From IMG/VR virus record IMGVR_UViG_3300009093_000132, positions 1 through 21,760 of that record: a stretch of DNA of 21,760 nucleotides. One strand, written 5' to 3'. Below the pieces are notes generated by a model. That model was not told the DNA's origin. It made no database searches and saw only the letters and a list, made by a program, of their open reading frames with translations. This stretch comes from a virus. Within the stretch, counting starts at the first letter, position 1. Every line of letters begins with the position of its first letter. Below, one piece after another: positions 6,356 to 20,270 of this stretch. A program made the translations under genes and the position numbers.

Positions 6356-6718
6356 TTACGACGCAGGAGGCGCGTCAGGAGCCGGTGCCGGAGCCGGTTC
6401 AGGAGCAGGAGCGGGCGGATTGACCGCAGCACTCAGATTGGCCGCAAGCGCATTCAGCTGAGTCGCAGCCGCTTCCATCGCAGCCGGGTCAGGGTTGTTG
6501 GCCTGAGCAGCTACCTGAGCCGCAAGAGCCTGGATGTCCGCAACAGCCGCATTCACCGAATTGGTGATGTTGGTGACTGCCGCATTCAGATCGTCAATTT
6601 CCTGTGCCATTATATCAATCCTCTGGTTGGTGACTTCGATCATCTGCATCAACCGGCGTTCACCGGGTGTGTAGATCACGCAATGAACAAAGCGTCTGAG
6701 ATGTTCCCTCATCATCAT
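6356..6718 (-). CDS. hypothetical coiled-coil protein with Pro-Ala-rich tail
   Basis: A 120-residue protein with three in-line ATG codons at its start (6718, 6715, 6712) and an AAGGG ribosome binding site overlapping the portal stop codon. Residues about 35-95 are a coiled coil rich in Ala, Asn and Leu (DDLNAAVTNITNSVNAAVAD...). The tail is a Pro/Ala/Glu linker of repeated 'PAPAPEP' units ending DAPPAS. The pattern suggests an oligomeric helical bundle with a flexible extended tail. Phages often carry such proteins near the portal, but I know of no defined function. The unusual composition is at protein level and the frame is intact. Confidence 0.7.
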   Translation of the reverse strand: MMMREHLRRFVHCVIYTPGERRLMQMIEVTNQRIDIMAQEIDDLNAAVTNITNSVNAAVADIQALAAQVAAQANNPDPAAMEAAATQLNALAANLSAAVNPPAPAPEPAPAPAPDAPPAS

Positions 6719-6727
6719 CGTTTGCCC

Positions 6728-8350
6728 TTATTTTTTGCTTTTCGGCTTTTTGTCTTTCGCGGGTTTTTTCGCTTCGGTTTTCCCAGTCCCAGGTTTTTTC
6801 GCACTGCTCGCACCACCACCGGCTTTTCCTCCGGCATCGGGCTTGATTGACTCTTTGATGTTTCCTGGTTCCATTTCCATTGGTTCGGGAACATCATCGG
6901 GATCAATTGGCCCATACGGCGCATCAGGGTCATCAGCGATCCGCTGACGCGACTCAGCAGGGTCCAAAATGCCTTTGTCGATGTAAATTGCATCTGTTTC
7001 TGCCTCTGTCTTGCGCATGCCAGCTTGTTCCACTTCATCCATCTCCCACAGGGGCTCATAGATGAACGTCAAGTCAGGGTCAACTTTTCCCCACAGGTTG
7101 ATCTGTGCCATCTTGAACACAGTCATCAAATGGGGCGTGAAGAAGCGTTCCTGATAGGCATGGATCGTGTCATAGAAGGCGCGAATTTCACCATCACTTG
7201 AAGCATTGAGACCAGCAGGGCTGATGCCCAACAACTTCACCAACGGAATACGAGAGATTGAGGCCATGTGCTCTTGTGCTTGGGCCTGCAGCTTATCGAG
7301 GGTACCAAGCGGAACACTCACATTCGTCAACTCTTCAGTGCCTTTGTTCAACACCATCGTCCCGCGATTGTTGCGGAGATTGTTGAACATGTCGATGCGA
7401 TCCATCAACCCGGTTGACTGTCCCGGAGCGAGAGTGGTGTTCATGTCGGTGGACAACACCATCTGCGAGAATGCTTGGATCAGATCGTTAACAGATTGGC
7501 GGGTCTGGAGCCAGTTATCAACATAGGGCTTAGCCATCTGGGTGCGACTCAGCCCGCCAAAGGAGAATGCAGGTTTCAGCAAATCTGGAACCGGCATGGA
7601 GACGAATGTCAAGAAGCGGGATTGGTGAACCTCGCGTGACATCACAAACCAAGAAGTGGGATTGTACCAAGTATCCTTCATCGGATCATTGGCATTGTAA
7701 TTGGACGGATAACACCACACAGGCTCCACAGGCTTGAACGCGCGTAATGAGCCTTGCTTGATTTTCTTTTCGCTGAACTCGTCACCATTCCCAATTGGCT
7801 TCTTCAGCTCATCGGGATTGTCGGTGTCACCAGTGTCGATGTAGAGATGAGAGCGGCCAAACCATCCATCTTGTTCGCTGATGGTCTGAAACAGATCACG
7901 CACCCGGAGGCGTTTGAACTCATCCTCCAATTCTTTGATTTGTTCTTCCTGCTCTTCATCCTCAGACACCGATTGAATCTTGATCCAACGTCGTGTTGCT
8001 TCGGTGCTGATGACTTCGCTGATGAGGCGATATTCCGGGATTTGCGCCAGCTCAGACAGATACGCATAACCAAGGAACGTGTAGCCCTGAGAGAAGGCAG
8101 TGTTGTAGATTTGGTTAGCTGCCCAACCAATCTGAGAGTTGTTGAAGAACGCACTGTTGTCGTCCATCGCCAGCTTGGTGCCTTTAGGCAACACACCCGG
8201 TGCCGGCTCAGCAGGCATAAACATCTTGCGAGCAGCGTCCATTCCCATCTGCTCGTTACGACGTGACAAGGCCATTGCTTCAACAGATAGCCAAGCAGGC
8301 TTTGTCTGCTTCGTGTCTTTGGCGATCTTAGGCTTGGCAGTCTTTCTCAC
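6728..8350 (-). CDS. portal protein, DUF1073 family
   Basis: A 540-residue portal protein that forms the dodecameric DNA channel at the capsid vertex. Family-type features are the 'NNSQIGWAANQIYNTAFSQG' region after the N-terminus, 'EYRLISEVISTEATRRWIKI' (about residues 107-126), 'DGWFGRSHLYIDTG', 'EVHQSRFLTF' and 'RIPLVKLLGISPAGLNAS' followed by 'GEIRAFYDTIHAYQE'. The tail after about residue 485 is a low-complexity Lys/Gly/Ala/Pro segment. It starts at GTG (8348-8350), which overlaps the terminase stop as GTGA. This family is named after Acb1-like anti-CBASS proteins in some databases, but the paired HxT phosphodiesterase motifs are not present here, and the position directly after terminase argues for a portal. 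Confidence 0.92.
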   Translation of the reverse strand: MRKTAKPKIAKDTKQTKPAWLSVEAMALSRRNEQMGMDAARKMFMPAEPAPGVLPKGTKLAMDDNSAFFNNSQIGWAANQIYNTAFSQGYTFLGYAYLSELAQIPEYRLISEVISTEATRRWIKIQSVSEDEEQEEQIKELEDEFKRLRVRDLFQTISEQDGWFGRSHLYIDTGDTDNPDELKKPIGNGDEFSEKKIKQGSLRAFKPVEPVWCYPSNYNANDPMKDTWYNPTSWFVMSREVHQSRFLTFVSMPVPDLLKPAFSFGGLSRTQMAKPYVDNWLQTRQSVNDLIQAFSQMVLSTDMNTTLAPGQSTGLMDRIDMFNNLRNNRGTMVLNKGTEELTNVSVPLGTLDKLQAQAQEHMASISRIPLVKLLGISPAGLNASSDGEIRAFYDTIHAYQERFFTPHLMTVFKMAQINLWGKVDPDLTFIYEPLWEMDEVEQAGMRKTEAETDAIYIDKGILDPAESRQRIADDPDAPYGPIDPDDVPEPMEMEPGNIKESIKPDAGGKAGGGASSAKKPGTGKTEAKKPAKDKKPKSKK

Positions 8351-10020
8351 CGGCGCACAATCCGGCTAGCAGCCAGCATCTCAGGAGTGATGACCAGCGG
8401 TGTCTTCATCGGGAAGTAGCACATCATCATCGCATCCGCCATATTTGGTGACTTGGCACCTTCTGGTTTCTTGTCAACGAGCAAGCGTAAATCGCCGCTC
8501 TTTTTCATCACTGGCTGAGACAATTCACGCATCAACTGACGCAACCTAGGCAGCTTGGAGTCAATTGAGATCATATCAGCAACATTGAACTTGATGCCCT
8601 CAGTCCTAGCACGGTGAGTATTCTCAAAACGCCTCGCCAACTGCCACCAACCTTGGGCTTTCAAATTCGCATAGAAGTCTTTATTCAACGGAGTGTTGCT
8701 GTCGCCTCGTATTACATTCGTCTCCGGATCAATCGGGCCCATGCCCGCATCCCATGGAGAGAACACAATGTGCTGGTCTAGAATTTTTTCCTTCCAAAGC
8801 CGGTTGGCTTCAGACTTCACACCAGCACCGATGCCGCAACAATCATATTGGACAGCAATAGGAGTATCAAACCCAATCTCTGAAATAACATGGCGGGTTG
8901 CCTCACCAGTGTCGCCTTCGCTCCATTCTTGAGCGTAGCGCAGCACAACTCCCTTTCGCTTCACTAATGCGTGACTATCACCGCCTTCATCGTAAGGATC
9001 AAAACCAGCACACCAACCACCATTGTCACCAAACTGGAGATGCACATGCGCGTCAATCGCAGATTTAACCCACTCAGGTTTGATGATAATTCCTTGAAGA
9101 GACGCTGATGGATCACGATCAACTTCCTGCCTAAAGAGATGCAGCAACCCTTGATCACGCGCAGACTTCTCACGCTCATCGTGCCACTGCTGTGTCTTTG
9201 CTGGATGGTCAGACCAATCCATCGTAAAGACCCGTGTTGTGGCCTTCGGAAGCAGCACACCAGTACTCCACTCAACACCCGCTTCCTTCTTGCGGTCATA
9301 AACGGTGCCCACACCGTTGCTTGTCGAGATGTCTATCTGGACCTTGGTGTTGTCGCCAAGTGCCGCTTCAATTGACTCAGGATGCTCATAGTGAGCAGAC
9401 TCATCCTTGAAGTAAATCGTTTTGCGGCCACCACGTCCGATGTTGTCTCCAGCCTCACCAGTGATTGTCGATCCGTTCGCAGGATTGATCAACCTCATAT
9501 AGAGCGAATGGTCACCAAACGAGAAACCAGCAGGTAGCATCCAACGCGGTAATTCACGCAGAGCCATTCGCATCTTCTCAAAGATGCTGTCTGGATCACC
9601 GAGTTTGTCCACCAATTGTTCCTTGCGCGATCCCCAACCAATGGAAGAGCCGGGACGGAACAACCACAACCAAAGTGAGAAGGCACAGCACACCCACGTC
9701 GCACCCATATCGCGGGACTTGTCGATCAATCCATTGGCTTGCTCGTTCATACAAGCCATCAGAAAGTTGATCAGTTCCTCTTGGCGCTTAAACATCACCA
9801 TCGGAAGCTTGACAGGCAACGTGTCTTCAAACGCATTACGCGGATCGTAGGTAATGAACCACTCATTGATCCAAGCAACAGGATCGTTTGAGTACTTCAT
9901 CATCGCAGCAGCGCGTTTTCTCTCATCCGAAATGCACTGTTGGAGTGTTGCTGCTCGCCATGAGATGACTGCAGCATAATCGGGAGGCCAGTGATCTTTA
10001 TCGAGTGTTGACGGCTGCAT
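8347..10020 (-). CDS. terL: terminase large subunit (packaging ATPase-nuclease)
   Basis: A 557-residue packaging motor. The ATPase P-loop variant is 'KSRDMGATW' (101-109): the usual GKT lysine is absent and Lys101 leads the motif, as in the lambda gpA-type P-loop. Walker B is 'TIYFKDESA' (201-209; Asp206, Glu207). The RNase H-like nuclease shows three acidic sites: Asp341 in 'CAGFDPYDEGGDSHAL', Asp393 in 'VQYDCCGIGAG' and Asp529 in 'SPNMADAMMM'. It overlaps the small subunit by 23 bases and the portal by GTGA. The ATG at 10020 lacks a strong ribosome binding site, so a slightly later start such as Met40 or Met41 is possible, though residues before it look ordinary. Confidence 0.93.
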   Translation of the reverse strand: MQPSTLDKDHWPPDYAAVISWRAATLQQCISDERKRAAAMMKYSNDPVAWINEWFITYDPRNAFEDTLPVKLPMVMFKRQEELINFLMACMNEQANGLIDKSRDMGATWVCCAFSLWLWLFRPGSSIGWGSRKEQLVDKLGDPDSIFEKMRMALRELPRWMLPAGFSFGDHSLYMRLINPANGSTITGEAGDNIGRGGRKTIYFKDESAHYEHPESIEAALGDNTKVQIDISTSNGVGTVYDRKKEAGVEWSTGVLLPKATTRVFTMDWSDHPAKTQQWHDEREKSARDQGLLHLFRQEVDRDPSASLQGIIIKPEWVKSAIDAHVHLQFGDNGGWCAGFDPYDEGGDSHALVKRKGVVLRYAQEWSEGDTGEATRHVISEIGFDTPIAVQYDCCGIGAGVKSEANRLWKEKILDQHIVFSPWDAGMGPIDPETNVIRGDSNTPLNKDFYANLKAQGWWQLARRFENTHRARTEGIKFNVADMISIDSKLPRLRQLMRELSQPVMKKSGDLRLLVDKKPEGAKSPNMADAMMMCYFPMKTPLVITPEMLAASRIVRR

Positions 10021-10438
10021 TAGAGTTTGCGATCATCTCAGAATAAATTTCTGCTGCTTCCTTTGGCGTCATCTTGCCACTGATCTTGGGTGTGTCTTCC
10101 GATGACTGCTCACGGAATTGCACATTGGCCAAACGCGGGTGGATATATGGAGCAGCATCCACTGCGCAGTTTTGAGCCTTCTCTCGCCAGTCCCAAAGAC
10201 GATTGATCGTCATATTCACTTCACGAATGAGAGCAGCATCACCAATCTGCTGCGCACGCGGCAAAATCTCATCCTCGAATTTGCGAACGGTTTCTTCACC
10301 CTTCTCCGTGAAGTACACCATGTTGTCAATCATCACCTCAATTGGTGACTTGCCTGCAGCCTTCGCATAGGCAACAATGTGGCTTCGATCCGCTTGTGTC
10401 AGTTTGTTGACTGAGCCTTTGGGACGGCCACCAGGCAT
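9998..10438 (-). CDS. terminase small subunit-like protein
   Basis: A 146-residue protein starting MPGGRPKGSVNKLTQADRS, an AT-hook-like basic N-terminus often seen in phage packaging small subunits and related DNA-binding proteins. The middle 'KSPIEVMIDNMVYF' and later 'CAVDAAPYIHPRLANVQ' are also typical of this group. It would recognise the packaging site and present DNA to the large subunit encoded next. The frame extends to a TTG at 10468, but the ATG at 10438 gives the conserved N-terminus and has GGAG ten bases upstream. It is the first gene after the terminator at 10545-10568, so it probably heads the late transcription unit. Confidence 0.8.
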   Translation of the reverse strand: MPGGRPKGSVNKLTQADRSHIVAYAKAAGKSPIEVMIDNMVYFTEKGEETVRKFEDEILPRAQQIGDAALIREVNMTINRLWDWREKAQNCAVDAAPYIHPRLANVQFREQSSEDTPKISGKMTPKEAAEIYSEMIANSNAAVNTR

Positions 10439-10484
10439 TTTGACATTACTCCATGATTTGATTACCAACGAAAAAAGTTTTTTG

Positions 10485-10499
10485 ACAGTTAATAACTGT
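10485..10499. promoter_or_regulatory. palindrome, possible operator upstream of terminase genes
   Basis: A perfect inverted repeat, ACAGTTA-A-TAACTGT, 15 bases long, next to an AAAAAAGTTTTTT tract at 10471-10483. Both lie in the only real gap (10439-10567) between the replication and packaging genes. The palindrome is the right size for a dimeric repressor site, and the A/T tract could bend DNA or form a weak hairpin. A minus-strand promoter is expected here, but I cannot name convincing -35 and -10 boxes. Operator function is inferred. Confidence 0.35.
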
Positions 10500-10544
10500 T
10501 CGCTGTGCTCACGCTCTCCGCTTTGCAGCAGAGTGCGCCACCCA

Positions 10545-10568
10545 GAAGAAAAGCCCCAACGCGGGGCT
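10545..10568 (-). terminator. rho-independent terminator after the NusG-like gene
   Basis: On the minus strand AGCCCC-GCGTT-GGGGCT (10568-10552) forms a G/C-rich 6-bp hairpin followed by TTTCTTC. The stem includes the first base of the NusG-like gene's TGA stop (10568-10570). It separates the replication unit from the packaging genes. Confidence 0.8.
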
Positions 10569-11071
10569 CACATCATCTTCTGAATCTGGTGGCCTTTGAG
10601 CTCAACTGTCAATTGACGCCCAAAGAATGCAATCGTTGCCTCAACAGCGCCTTTGATCTTGCGAACAAAGGTACCTTTGTGCCCAGTAAATGGACCGCTG
10701 ATGATTCCAAAAATCTCATTCTTGTCAAACCAAGGGAGAACATCATTGCTCTCAACCTTGATCTCAAAATCGCCGTAGCAAAGACGACGTTCAAATTCAT
10801 TCATCCAATTCTGAGGCACAGCAATTGGACGCACCAAATGATTGGGGAGCAATTTGCTCACACCTTGCGTCTCATTGACGCGCGAGAAGTCCTCATCACA
10901 ATCCCAAAGCTTCACAAACACATAACCAGGCAACACAGCGCGGTAATAACCATCGTGTTTGATCTCAGGATACAGGTAAGCAATTCCATTGTTGCGGAGA
11001 TTGGTGAGAGCACGCTTGGTGTCTCCAGCGCGGAGTGCGGCAATGTACCAATTTTGGTTTTCGTCAGCCAC
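10568..11071 (-). CDS. NusG-like transcription elongation/antitermination factor
   Basis: A phage NusG/RfaH-type protein. The NGN domain starts 'NQNWYIAALRAGDTKRAL' and includes 'LPGYVFVKLW' and 'VNETQGVSKLL'. The C-terminal KOW domain is 'FGIISGPFTGHKGTFV' and 'FFGRQLTVELKGHQIQKM'. Such proteins bind RNA polymerase and alter pausing or termination. The frame is open to an ATG at 11179, but NusG proteins begin just before the WY motif and the extra 36 residues are Trp-rich and overlap the nuclease gene. I therefore prefer GTG 11069-11071, giving 167 residues. The ribosome binding site there (GGTGGA) is weak, so ATG 11164 or 11179 remain possible. A terminator follows at once and late genes lie beyond, which suggests a role in late transcription. 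Confidence 0.8.
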   Translation of the reverse strand: MADENQNWYIAALRAGDTKRALTNLRNNGIAYLYPEIKHDGYYRAVLPGYVFVKLWDCDEDFSRVNETQGVSKLLPNHLVRPIAVPQNWMNEFERRLCYGDFEIKVESNDVLPWFDKNEIFGIISGPFTGHKGTFVRKIKGAVEATIAFFGRQLTVELKGHQIQKMM

Positions 11072-11120
11072 CCAAATCCACCCGAAGCGGAACACCCAGT
11101 AGCGTTTCTTGCCCCAAATT

Positions 11121-11555
11121 TCATTTTTTGGAAAGCCCCCTCCACAAAAAATTTCTGACCTCATTGCTGAAGTTGTCATCTTTGGGAAGCATCTGACAAT
11201 TCACACCAACAACAAATTGGTTCAAGCGATAACCATCCAACATGTGTTTTGCATGAAACAGAATATGCCTAATATCTTTCCCGTCCTTTATTCCAACAGA
11301 GAATGCACTCATGTTGCCTGCGATCCCAAACCGCGTGTGCCACGAAATTTGCGCAGGTCGAATTTCCTCAACAGTCAAATTTCCTTTGACAATGGAGCCT
11401 CGTTTGAACTCCAGCGGCAAAATCCAATTTGGTTTGACGATGACCAATTGACAATCTGGATGCCCGGTCCCGCTCCCACGCGCTGGCTCAAAGGTATCAT
11501 ACCAACCATCCCACCGCTTCAGAAAATCTCTTTTGACATCTCGCTCAAGAACCAT
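11121..11555 (-). CDS. PD-(D/E)xK nuclease (resolvase/VRR-NUC-like)
   Basis: A 144-residue small nuclease. The motif set is 'SGTGHPDCQLVIV' (Pro33, Asp34), then 'WILPLEFKRGS' (Glu49, Lys51), then 'IRPAQISWHTR' (Gln69, Trp72, His73). This is the PD-ExK core followed by the Q-x-x-W helix of Holliday junction resolvase and VRR-NUC-like phage nucleases. It probably cuts branched or recombination intermediates before packaging, working with the primase-helicase and polymerase upstream. The ATG has GAGGG about four bases before it. The C-terminus overlaps the longer possible form of the NusG-like gene by 59 bases. The exact subfamily and substrate cannot be told from sequence alone. Confidence 0.8.
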   Translation of the reverse strand: MVLERDVKRDFLKRWDGWYDTFEPARGSGTGHPDCQLVIVKPNWILPLEFKRGSIVKGNLTVEEIRPAQISWHTRFGIAGNMSAFSVGIKDGKDIRHILFHAKHMLDGYRLNQFVVGVNCQMLPKDDNFSNEVRNFLWRGLSKK

Positions 11556-11805: not shown

Positions 11806-14013
11806 TCAAAATGACAGAAACAGCACTTCATTCGATGTTGTCAAATGCTTCGACAGATACTCCCTTTTCAATTTATCATCCTCAATTTCCTCGAAACCTT
11901 TTTCAAAATCCTCATTGACAATGACATACTGCAACCGGCCATCAACAAACATCCGTTTCTTCAATGTCAGCGCACCAACCTCCTTCATCGCACGCCTCAA
12001 ATCCGCGTCACTATCAAAGACCTTCGACTTGACAGCCCGCTTGACATAGCTCTCAACATCCTTCATCGCCAGAGCCTTCGGACCAGAGAGCCTGATCATT
12101 GCCACCGCCAAATCAGTCGCCTCCTTTTGGGCCTCCGTCCGCGAAGCCTCAATCAATTCTTTCTTCTGAACAGTCATTGGGGCGCGTTGACCAATCAGCA
12201 CATAACCCCCGGTCCAATTCTCTGCCCACCACTTGATGATCTGCAAACCACCGCTCTTGATCCAGCGATGGAACTTGTCAAACTTCGCATCTGGCCAACG
12301 CTTCTCCGTCACCTCCGGATAAAACCAACGGCGGTCATCATCCTCCATTTTGAGAGCCTGTTTCGAGTTGGAGCAAGCAAAGAAGTGGCACCAATTCTCA
12401 ATCGTATATTCCTTCTGGAACTTCTGATTGATCCGCACAGATGTATCAGTGATGAAACTCTTCAGCTTATTGTAAGCCTTCCACGAATGACCGGCATAAA
12501 TCTCTCCAATAACAGCCAAGCGTCTCTGTGCAAGCCATTCATTGAAATCACTGTTCGTAATATCTGTTTCAGACGGATGGCTCACATTGTTGATCCCAAC
12601 AAGCGGCGCAAGAATATGCTGACCAAGTGTCGTCTTGCCAACACCTTGCGTCTCACTCACCAGCAACACTCCATATTCCATGTGAATGTCCGGCCTCGCA
12701 ATGAGCGTCGCACACCAACGCAACATCTCATCCCTATCCTCTTTCTTAGGGAACATATAATCCATGAAATCCAGCCACGGTTTGGGATCACCTTCACTGG
12801 CCTCAATAGTCGAAGGAATATGCAGATTGATTGAGGACCGTCCCTGGTTCACAATCATCCGTTCCGGAATGTCCGGCCTGTAGCAAAGGCTAGTCTGCCG
12901 TCCATTATAGGATTTATGCAACAACTCAGTGGTCACACTCACATGCGAGAATGCCTTCACATGGTTGTTGAATATCTTGTCATTCATGATATTGTCGGGC
13001 ATCTCAGTGCAGATAAACAAATCTGCGCCCTCAACATAGGCCCACAATTCCTTAAAATGGGAACGCAATCTTGGTACATCTTTCCCCTTTCCCTTCGGAT
13101 TGGGGATCATATCAGTGGCCCATGTCGCAGGGTGCTTGCATTCGCGGAAAGACGGCCCAATGTAAAATCTCTTGCCATCAACCTCTTCAAACATCTTCTT
13201 GGGCCACTCATCAGCCATATCAAAAGTCGCTGGCCATTGCTCTGAGAATTGAATAGAGAAAGTAGTGCAGTGCAGCATCCGCGCAATATTAGGAATAACA
13301 GAACGTCCAACACTGTCATTGTCCGCAACAATGTAAGCATACTTGATGCCTTCACGCGTCAATGGGCTCCAATCTGTTCGCTCCGGAGAGAGCGCACCAC
13401 CCGTCCATCCGACATGCGCAGCACCACTCATCTCTTTCTTCCAAGGGAAAGCGTTCCACGCATCACGCGCTGACTTCGTTTCTCCCTCCATCATCCATTG
13501 CATATGAGCAGCAGCCTTCGCGCCTTCGTGAATAAAGACTGTGCTCTGGTCCTTGATCCCTTGCAGCCCCCACAAGGGCAACCGATCAGGCTCCATCTTC
13601 CTCCACACCTCATCATTCCAGAAAGTGTAAGGAACATAAACCCTGCGATCATTGATCACCTGACGCTGCTGCATCATGATCAATTTGCCCTCAGTGTCAC
13701 GATACTCAAACGTAACCTTCGGATCACCATTGCGCAATTCTTCCGGCATATTCGGTGGACGCACCAAGTGAACGATATGTGGCCATTCATACTTATTGAA
13801 TTGCTCTTTGATTGCCTTGCGCTCTGCGTCATCAGGAGCATATTCTTCATCAGCCTTCACCTCACCGTCCTTGGTGAAGCGGATGATGGAAACATCTTTC
13901 CAGTATTTGCCGCTGGTCTTTTTGATCACAGCAGTGCGCAAGGATCGCACATCAGCATTGATGCGGTGAAGGTAATCCGCAACAGCCGGAACGTCCAATA
14001 GAGAGTTGATCAT
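11806..14013 (-). CDS. primase-helicase (TOPRIM-like plus SF3/D5-type ATPase, DUF5906-like)
   Basis: A 735-residue replication protein. The N-terminal half has TOPRIM-like motifs: 'TVFIHEGAKAAAH' (158-170; Glu163) and 'YAYIVADNDSVGR' (225-237; Asp231, Asp233). The C-terminal half is a superfamily 3 helicase of the phage D5/DUF5906 type: Walker A 'SETQGVGKTTLG' (453-464), Walker B-like 'RLAVIGEIY' (498-506; Glu504), a sensor-like 'HFFACSNSKQAL', and 'EDDDRRWFYPEV' supplying an arginine finger. It should unwind and prime DNA for the phage polymerase encoded upstream. No N-terminal zinc ribbon is seen, so primer synthesis ability is uncertain. The start ATG has AGGG seven bases upstream. Confidence 0.88.
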   Translation of the reverse strand: MINSLLDVPAVADYLHRINADVRSLRTAVIKKTSGKYWKDVSIIRFTKDGEVKADEEYAPDDAERKAIKEQFNKYEWPHIVHLVRPPNMPEELRNGDPKVTFEYRDTEGKLIMMQQRQVINDRRVYVPYTFWNDEVWRKMEPDRLPLWGLQGIKDQSTVFIHEGAKAAAHMQWMMEGETKSARDAWNAFPWKKEMSGAAHVGWTGGALSPERTDWSPLTREGIKYAYIVADNDSVGRSVIPNIARMLHCTTFSIQFSEQWPATFDMADEWPKKMFEEVDGKRFYIGPSFRECKHPATWATDMIPNPKGKGKDVPRLRSHFKELWAYVEGADLFICTEMPDNIMNDKIFNNHVKAFSHVSVTTELLHKSYNGRQTSLCYRPDIPERMIVNQGRSSINLHIPSTIEASEGDPKPWLDFMDYMFPKKEDRDEMLRWCATLIARPDIHMEYGVLLVSETQGVGKTTLGQHILAPLVGINNVSHPSETDITNSDFNEWLAQRRLAVIGEIYAGHSWKAYNKLKSFITDTSVRINQKFQKEYTIENWCHFFACSNSKQALKMEDDDRRWFYPEVTEKRWPDAKFDKFHRWIKSGGLQIIKWWAENWTGGYVLIGQRAPMTVQKKELIEASRTEAQKEATDLAVAMIRLSGPKALAMKDVESYVKRAVKSKVFDSDADLRRAMKEVGALTLKKRMFVDGRLQYVIVNEDFEKGFEEIEDDKLKREYLSKHLTTSNEVLFLSF

Positions 14014-19038: not shown

Positions 19039-19307
19039 CCCTTCTCTCCCCTGCTGCGACGCAATTTAATTTCATCAATCATCAAATGAAGATTGTTGAT
19101 CAGTTCCTCAGTTTGAACATCACTCATCCCAATCCAAGCAAGGTCTTTATCCTCATACTTGATTGTCATGATCACATTCATCGCCTTGGTGTTGCTATCT
19201 TCTCCAACATAGCAATAGACGGAATGGATTGCTGGAGTCATGGTTTTGATTTCACCAATCATCTTTTCGATGGGGCTTTCTTTCTTCTTTCGGCTCCACC
19301 ATCCCAT
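19035..19307 (-). CDS. hypothetical protein (90 aa)
   Basis: A 90-residue protein starting MGWWSRKKKESPIEKMIGEI. It has a beta-type middle ('AMNVIMTIKYEDKDLAWIG') and a helical C-terminus ('TEELINNLHLMIDEIKLRRS'). I do not recognise a family. I chose ATG 19307, which overlaps the dehydrogenase stop as TGATG, over the earlier in-frame start at 19334 that would lie inside the dehydrogenase. Its TGA overlaps the next ATG. It belongs to the chain of coupled small genes before the replication proteins. Confidence 0.65.
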   Translation of the reverse strand: MGWWSRKKKESPIEKMIGEIKTMTPAIHSVYCYVGEDSNTKAMNVIMTIKYEDKDLAWIGMSDVQTEELINNLHLMIDEIKLRRSRGEKG

Positions 19308-19981
19308 CACACCCCTCCCATCACATCCAAGCAAATCCCGTTTACATAATCGGGCATCTCCAAGAGTTTGAAAACAGCATTTGTGACCTCAAGACGATTG
19401 GTGAAGCGTCCCATTGGTACATTGCTGAGCGCATAGCTGTCTGCCTGTTCTTTCGACCATCCCCGCAATTCACAGACTTGCTGATCTGTCAATTGAGACA
19501 TCTCTGTATCTTCAATCTTCCCCGGAGCGAGAGCATTGATGATCCATCCACTGGGAGCCAATTCACGAGCCATCACCTTCGTCATTTGGACCAACGCAGC
19601 CTTCGATGCGCAATAGAGCGATGTTGTCCGCTGAGGCACCCGATGTGTCGCAGACGCAATGTTGACTACACGTGCTGGCTTGTTTCCGTTGCCCACCAGA
19701 TAATTGATCACCCAATAAGGTCCCATCACATTCCAGCGCATGATGTCTTCATCATCTTCCTCTGTGGTGCCAATCCAAGAGAGATGGTTGGTGCCGAAAT
19801 TGTTGACCACATAATCGAAGTCATTGCCATTCAATTTCAGGTAGCTCTCAATGGCCTTTTTGCCGCCCATTATTACGTCTCCGGGGAGATTTACGAAGTC
19901 CAACCCCTCGCTTGCTGCCCGGCTTGCGATCTTTTTTCCCAGGCTTCCTTCTGCTCCCGTTATCAGCATTGATTGCGTCAT
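19307..19981 (-). CDS. short-chain dehydrogenase/reductase (SDR)
   Basis: A 224-residue classical SDR. The NAD(P)-binding motif is 'TGAEGSLG' (8-15), the NNxG motif is 'VNNFGTN' (59-65), and the catalytic residues are Asn84, Ser110 ('NIASATHR'), Tyr123 and Lys127 ('YCASK'), all present. It should bind NAD(P) and oxidise or reduce a small alcohol or ketone; the substrate is unknown. The start ATG at 19981 has GGAGG at ideal spacing and lies 134 bases inside the preceding gene in a different frame. SDRs are uncommon in phage genomes, so this is probably an acquired metabolic gene. Neighbours handle nucleotides, so a nucleotide-sugar or modified-base precursor is one possibility. Confidence 0.88.
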   Translation of the reverse strand: MTQSMLITGAEGSLGKKIASRAASEGLDFVNLPGDVIMGGKKAIESYLKLNGNDFDYVVNNFGTNHLSWIGTTEEDDEDIMRWNVMGPYWVINYLVGNGNKPARVVNIASATHRVPQRTTSLYCASKAALVQMTKVMARELAPSGWIINALAPGKIEDTEMSQLTDQQVCELRGWSKEQADSYALSNVPMGRFTNRLEVTNAVFKLLEMPDYVNGICLDVMGGV

Positions 19982-20270
19982 CAAATTCCTCCAAAATAAA
20001 AGCGTAAACACCCAGATCGTGAATTGAATCCTTGTGACCACCCTTCAAGAAGTTGGTCGCATAACGTCCCAGCTTCGCAGTGATCATCATCAGCGTAACA
20101 AAGCGTCCCATGTCATTTGTTGAGAGCCTTGGGATGCCTTCTGGGAACATCGCATTAACGATCCCTGCCTGCATCAGATAGCCGCGTTGTCCGTATGTTG
20201 GGTTGCGGCTCTCGAAAGTCTTTCGTGCCTGTTCGAGAATTTCAGGCACACCATTAATTTTTTTCATCAT
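19848..20270 (-). CDS. MazG-like helical phage protein (DUF6378/DUF1599 type) with basic tail
   Basis: A 140-residue protein. The core 'SRNPTYGQRGYL', 'MMITAKLGRYATNFLKGGH' and 'DSIHDLGVYAFILEEFDDA' matches the pattern of small all-helical phage proteins with YG, KxxR and DSxxDLxxY motifs (DUF6378; DUF1599 is described as nucleotide modification-associated). After this core a tail of about 40 residues, rich in Arg, Lys and Gly, is encoded in the region that overlaps the start of the dehydrogenase in another frame. The start is one of two adjacent ATGs (20270 or 20267), just after GGAGAAAG. The enzymatic role is unproven. The nearby NTP pyrophosphohydrolase and phosphatase suggest nucleotide metabolism. 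Confidence 0.75.
   Translation of the reverse strand: MMKKINGVPEILEQARKTFESRNPTYGQRGYLMQAGIVNAMFPEGIPRLSTNDMGRFVTLMMITAKLGRYATNFLKGGHKDSIHDLGVYAFILEEFDDAINADNGSRRKPGKKDRKPGSKRGVGLRKSPRRRNNGRQKGH

Follow-up and report, generated by a model that had tools for sequence, protein, structure and literature searches.

The window, i.e., the entire 21,760-bp virus record analyzed here, carries all its main genes on the minus strand. The early part of this strand reads in the order polynucleotide-kinase-like protein, FabG-like protein, DnaQ-like exonuclease, Pol III alpha, primase-helicase, a small unassigned gene, and a NusG-like gene, which is followed after a short gap by the genes for the small and large terminase subunits (terS and terL), the portal, a MuF-like protein, a head protease, and the capsid (Table 1). 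On the basis of this gene order the boundary between the replication and packaging units falls at the nusG-terS junction, where the preliminary description had placed it. The window TerL is 53% identical to the TerL proteins of Pseudanabaena phage Pam3 and Rhizobium phages, and the window TerS additionally shows a weak local match to annotated TerS. The FabG-like short-chain reductase encoded among the early genes (window 19307-20041, minus strand; phrog_3142, 3.1e-30) is a candidate auxiliary metabolic or host-takeover gene. Perfect 7-bp inverted repeats with a spacing of ≤5 bp number 18 in the window versus 3-14 in five shuffled copies.

Table 1. Features around the nusG-terS junction of the window, ordered by position.
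Feature	Position	Strand	Details
Terminase large subunit (terL)	8347..10020	-	phrog_2, 1.3e-21
Terminase small subunit (terS)	9998..10439	-	ATG at 10439; 31.6% identity to the same-slot protein of L082 (3e-18)
A6-G-T6 tract	10471..10483	. (+ strand reading)	Low complexity
15-bp palindrome ACAGTTATTAACTGT	10485..10499	.	Single copy
GCGGAGAGCGTG	10510..10521	-	+46 after the nusG stop, an offset shared with the ops-core elements in relatives
Second leader hairpin, GCAA tetraloop (GNRA)	10511..10538	-	GCGC-A-CTCTGCT-GCAA-AGCGGAG-A-GCGT; from the fold of 10440-10545
Intrinsic-terminator-like hairpin	10551..10569	-	GAGCCCC-GCGTT-GGGGCTT then TTCTTCT; T-rich tail 10543-10550
nusG-like gene	10568..11179	-	203 aa with the ATG start, 167 aa with the GTG at 11071
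KOW domain, predicted β-barrel, canonical NusG-like sequence	10571..10732	-	NusG chain alignment through residue 201-202
NGN domain (RNA-polymerase-binding domain of the NusG family)	10793..11053	-	Pfam match, residues 43-129
Gene directly 5' of nusG	11121..11555	-	Nuclease-like by eye; no family match
Primase-helicase (DUF5906/VapE-like), replication unit	11806..14013	-	Pfam and PHROG matches

The product of the NusG-like gene, for which the preliminary description had implied the alternative GTG start, is recovered by the Pfam NusG model (PF02357; 1.7e-10, 41.7 bits, above the cutoff of 22.2) and by PHROG 6386, annotated as a transcription antiterminator (1.5e-16). Its AlphaFold (AF2) model comprises an NGN domain and a β-barrel KOW domain (pLDDT 85), with the KOW β-strands at residues 120-165 of the 167-residue form predicted at a pLDDT of about 90, and in Foldseek the structures nearest to it are chains of NusG and RfaH, many of which come from transcription complexes. 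Both hallmarks of the NusG/Spt5 family are accordingly present, viz., the NGN domain (Pfam and Foldseek) and the C-terminal KOW β-barrel (AF2 and chain alignments). Among the curated models compared, the protein scores best with nusG (TIGR00922; 40.6 bits, cutoff 135.7), followed by UpxY (34.4 bits), RfaH (27.4 bits, cutoff 144.5), and LoaP (25.7 bits, cutoff 125). It is a divergent NusG paralogue and, with every score far under its cutoff, no orthologue of any curated family; nor is it of the RfaH type, ordinary NusG being the best model. At the positions of the DNA-reading residues K10, H20, R23, and Q24 of RfaH, the window protein has R10, N20, N23, and N24. The HMM, AF2, and Foldseek results and the gene order agree with the earlier view that a phage NusG paralogue stands at the end of the replication unit. 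Scans with NusG patterns recovered few relatives, the proteins having diverged too far, and no relative turned up that pairs the window's protein subtype with another leader.

The nusG stop (10568) and the terS ATG (10439) are separated by 128 nt. The hairpin at the nusG stop, whose stem opens with the G and A of the TGA codon (10568-10570), has a minimum free energy of -12.5 kcal/mol (z -3.15); only 0.25% of shuffled gaps contain a strict terminator, and the minus strand of the window has no other. The stop codon had already been placed within a rho-independent hairpin, and the analysis bears this out, the span given at that time (10545-10568) taking in the T-rich tail besides the stem-loop. 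This tail can also pair with an upstream CAGAAGA in a longer stem, which could weaken the hairpin as a terminator. Between the terminator and the palindrome sits the hairpin with the GNRA loop, which was absent from the preliminary description and is possibly an RNA loading element. Consensus ops, the recruitment site of RfaH, has no match within two mismatches in the gap; GCGGAGAGCGTG differs from it in having GCGG-AG-AGC instead of GCGG-T-AGC, and GCGG..AGC as an indel variant of ops, with 1 match versus 0.78 expected, was discarded as a positional coincidence only.

The palindrome and the A6-G-T6 tract reported previously are both present; however, a 7-bp palindrome is found in about 5% of shuffled gaps, so that ACAGTTATTAACTGT is of marginal significance and constitutes weak evidence. 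No counterpart of it was found in the gaps of the relatives, whose TerS proteins are different. The only close relative, L002, belongs to the same species as the window (99.7% identity over 7,967 bp) and is identical to it throughout the gap, and hence offers no conservation test of the gap elements; 8 of the 26 differences between these two near-identical sequences fall within 14 bases (window 6502-6515). Searches with the gap DNA against phages gave no meaningful match, and an Rfam search gave none.

The window TerL falls into a group with Pseudanabaena phage Pam3 and Rhizobium phages, the listed relatives being 43-53% identical to it, and a nusG gene is absent from all six isolates examined in this TerL group. 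Scans with TerL alignments yielded about 180 loci, mostly uncultured contigs, in which NusG was called first with the Pfam NusG model and then with a local HMM. A NusG-like gene occurs in 23 of the 106 distinct phage or prophage loci with a related TerL and enough upstream sequence, and in all 23 it shares the strand of terL and precedes it by 0.4-5.5 kb, usually with terS in between. The slot is also present in a Methylobacterium terricola prophage (L174). On the TerL tree the label of nusG presence needs 14 changes, of which at least 8 are forced by well-supported branches, a pattern indicating that nusG has been gained or lost many times in one and the same slot. In an isolated phage with a different head-gene set, Microcystis phage vB_MweS-yong2 (OM681334.1; L201, L202), nusG is likewise the last gene and terS the first, and no ops core was seen in its visible gap. 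The gene follows same-strand replication genes in the window and in L079, L113, L029, L031, and L130; in L072, L147, and L082 the genes upstream of nusG appear to be on the opposite strand, and there nusG would therefore open the late operon rather than mark the end of the early one. A terminator-like hairpin is present in the gap of only 4 of 26 nusG-bearing loci, and the terminator was consequently dropped as a conserved part of the slot; L161 has a hairpin across the nusG stop similar to that of the window. A second well-supported nusG subfamily occupies the same slot without ops (L018, L029, L031, L106, L107, and L108); UpxY is the best model in the two proteins of this subfamily that were tested, and the gap of L108 holds a strong terminator (-26.9 kcal/mol).

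Ten relatives (L079, L082, L072, L154, L147, L055, L113, L163, L161, and L206) carry GCGG(T/C)AGC, the core of ops, between nusG and the terminase genes. The site reads GCGGTAGC or GCGGCAGC, corresponds to positions 2-9 of ops (GGCGGTAGCGTG), and mostly lies 40-58 nt past the nusG stop; the full 12-nt ops is matched only in L079, the pause bases 10-12 varying in the other relatives. The first four sites were spotted by eye and the statistical tests followed: GCGGTAGC is found 7 times in the 4,160 nt after nusG (0.10 expected), as against 8 times in 325 kb elsewhere in the same loci, and it ranks first of 3,768 8-mers in the post-nusG stretches (p=1.4e-11). Among the 88 nusG-less loci there is no enrichment, with 2 sites of GCGGTAGC in 132 kb upstream of TerL. 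Apart from one or two pairs, the flanks of the core show no conservation, and the site-bearing loci encode proteins with only 26-51% identity to the first one in the set, so that a leader inherited in common is not a ready explanation of the site. An additional scan added three loci, of which L206 has the site (at +252, ahead of TerS and TerL) and L205 and L208 lack it. An RNA hairpin directly 5' of the core, considered as a second conserved element, does better than randomly chosen sites (p=0.004), but similar scores are reached at other GCGG(T/C)AGC sites; GCTACC on the reverse strand of the loci lacking ops occurs 3 times versus 0.9 expected. A second ops site in the L079 genome, inside a short coding frame, looks like chance and was disregarded, and another in the L206 contig is intergenic, a single and anecdotal case.

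The proteins encoded next to these sites are also the ones closest to RfaH. The NCBIfam RfaH model (TIGR01955) is the best model for all ten site-bearing proteins, at 61-92 bits against a cutoff of 144.5, versus 2 of the 11 other slot proteins tested. In the RfaH-ops complex, ops bases 3-8 are required for recruitment, and the flipped ops T6 is held in a pocket formed by H20, R23, Q24, and R73 of RfaH (PMC5995543). The pocket residue Q24 is retained in 8 of the 10 site-bearing proteins versus 1 of 17 others (Fisher about 1.7e-4, kinship ignored), and all ten have H or N at position 20 and K or Q at position 10; the RfaH reference fragment in this alignment agrees with the RfaH chain over the stretch used. 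The best AF2 model of the L163 protein has its KOW domain in the β form, a prediction that leaves room for an autoinhibited α-helical state that refolds. Taken at the level of sequence, the ten relatives look like a phage RfaH-ops pair; the window protein, with R10, N20, N23, and N24, looks like a cousin with another loading rule.

Based on the gene and its predicted fold, the conserved slot, and the ops core with its link to RfaH-like proteins, we propose that the phage-encoded specialized NusG paralogue is probably a resident antiterminator for the late operon, acting as a self-licensing early-to-late switch that would hold the position of Q in lambda and work by a mechanism of the RfaH/LoaP type. 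Near the nusG-terS junction the phage-made protein would attach to the host RNA polymerase, which would thereby resist pausing and termination and so transcribe the long late operon to its end. Since the order is nusG, then site, then terminase genes, the factor would have to be made before the checkpoint is met, i.e., before polymerases are licensed into the late genes, and this order holds with same-strand (e.g., L079) as well as opposite-strand (e.g., L072) upstream genes. In the ten relatives the ops core would be the loading site, with antitermination and control of the late genes as its predicted consequences; in the window the divergent protein might fill this role by way of another signal within the leader (10440-10570), for which the GNRA hairpin is a candidate. 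The earlier proposal that the NusG paralogue controls entry into the late genes gains strong comparative support from the slot before terS and terL and from the ops cores of the ten relatives. The best score of the window protein with ordinary NusG, its lack of the R23/Q24-type pocket residues, the absence of consensus ops from the window leader, and the opposite-strand genes upstream of nusG in L072, L147, and L082 count against the late-operon reading, and the canonical look of its KOW domain could reflect a NusG-like role unrelated to late genes. We regard as evenly poised the wider proposition that a widespread group of tailed phages encodes its own RfaH-type antiterminator and an ops checkpoint before the terminase genes, the window using this circuit too but with a protein that has diverged and with another signal.

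The preliminary description offered the alternative that the terminator at the nusG stop is itself the target of the NusG-like protein, which on building up would let polymerase read through into terS and the late genes. This terminator is real and stands out within the window, the L161 hairpin resembles it, and LoaP-type NusG paralogues promote the bypass of termination sites (PMC12691694). Nevertheless, no loading site could be found ahead of the window terminator, and with terminator-like hairpins in so few of the nusG-bearing gaps such read-through finds no support as a general rule; furthermore, the ops-bearing phages have their loading site past the stop, and because an ops-loaded factor acts downstream of ops it cannot defeat a terminator at the stop. 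For the window we consider this mechanism possible but unlikely, and do not favor it. An equally doubtful alternative, also anticipated in the preliminary description, holds that the terminator merely ends the early transcript and that the late genes have their own promoter in the gap, perhaps with control through the palindrome, while the NusG-like protein works elsewhere. The terminator, the palindrome and AT-rich tract before terS, and the roominess of the 128-nt gap would accommodate this, but nothing speaks positively for a late promoter at the marginal palindrome, no sigma-70-like site was seen on the minus strand of the gap (although the host's promoters may be of another type), and both the recurrence of nusG in the slot and the ops cores of the relatives would be left unexplained.

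Packaging sites often lie next to terS, and the palindrome and A/T tract might accordingly be a packaging (cos/pac) or TerS-binding site unrelated to transcription; we deem this very unlikely, with nothing similar in the gaps of the relatives, although their TerS proteins differ. We also judge it distinctly improbable that the protein competes with host NusG and thereby protects the phage genome at large from Rho-dependent silencing, without acting at any specific site. Foreign genes are indeed silenced by NusG and Rho (PMC7593976), and a canonical NusG-like KOW domain and the absence of consensus ops from the window would fit such a role, yet the fixed place of the gene before terS and the ops cores of the relatives point to a targeted one.

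The proposed antiterminator switch is reminiscent of several known systems. As with RfaH and ops of Enterobacteria, there is a NusG-family fold, a long operon as target, relatives' proteins nearest to RfaH, and leaders in these relatives with the ops core GCGGTAGC holding the recruitment bases; in contrast, the phage systems adjoin their presumed target before the terminase genes, score under the NCBIfam RfaH cutoffs, and have unconserved pause bases 10-12 in the relatives' ops and no consensus ops in the window. LoaP of Bacillus, which is paired with the leader RNA hairpin dfn, is, similarly, a specialized paralogue that promotes terminator bypass from a leader element, and the window leader has stable RNA hairpins; however, the window protein scores weakly with the LoaP model. 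The gene for the lambda Q antiterminator lies directly upstream of the late operon under its control, as proposed here, but Q is an unrelated protein that loads at a promoter-proximal pause (qut) via DNA binding and sigma. Housekeeping NusG shares the NGN and KOW domains and provides the best curated model for the window protein, from which it is set apart by the sub-cutoff score, the phage-borne gene, and the divergent NGN domain. The NusG paralogues of plasmids (ActX/TraB and PrfaH) are likewise resident in a mobile element, in or beside a long operon, although conjugation genes are the setting there and phage late genes here; such paralogues within tra operons have been published, with a passing mention of rfaH-like genes in prophages (PMC7593976, PMC6391919).

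Searches of the open literature turned up neither a phage NusG or RfaH that acts on late genes nor a phage leader with an ops element. Late-gene switches of phages are known from a few models, namely lambda Q, T4, T7, and P2 Ogr, and a phage-borne switch of the RfaH/ops type would, if true, be a further class and would imply that the ops code is in use far beyond the surface operons of enterobacteria. The natural pairs with an altered pocket (H20 to N and changes of Q24) and altered ops bases (T6 to C) would be material to dissect recognition, and the starts of late operons in uncultured phages might be predicted from sequence. Finally, cold-shock-domain-like frames (FDSRKGFGFIKP, FNSEKGYGFINK) occur just 3' of nusG in L205 and L208 and between terS and terL in L079; CspA-type proteins are RNA-melting antiterminators, and the pairing of such a frame with a nearby nusG may be meaningful.
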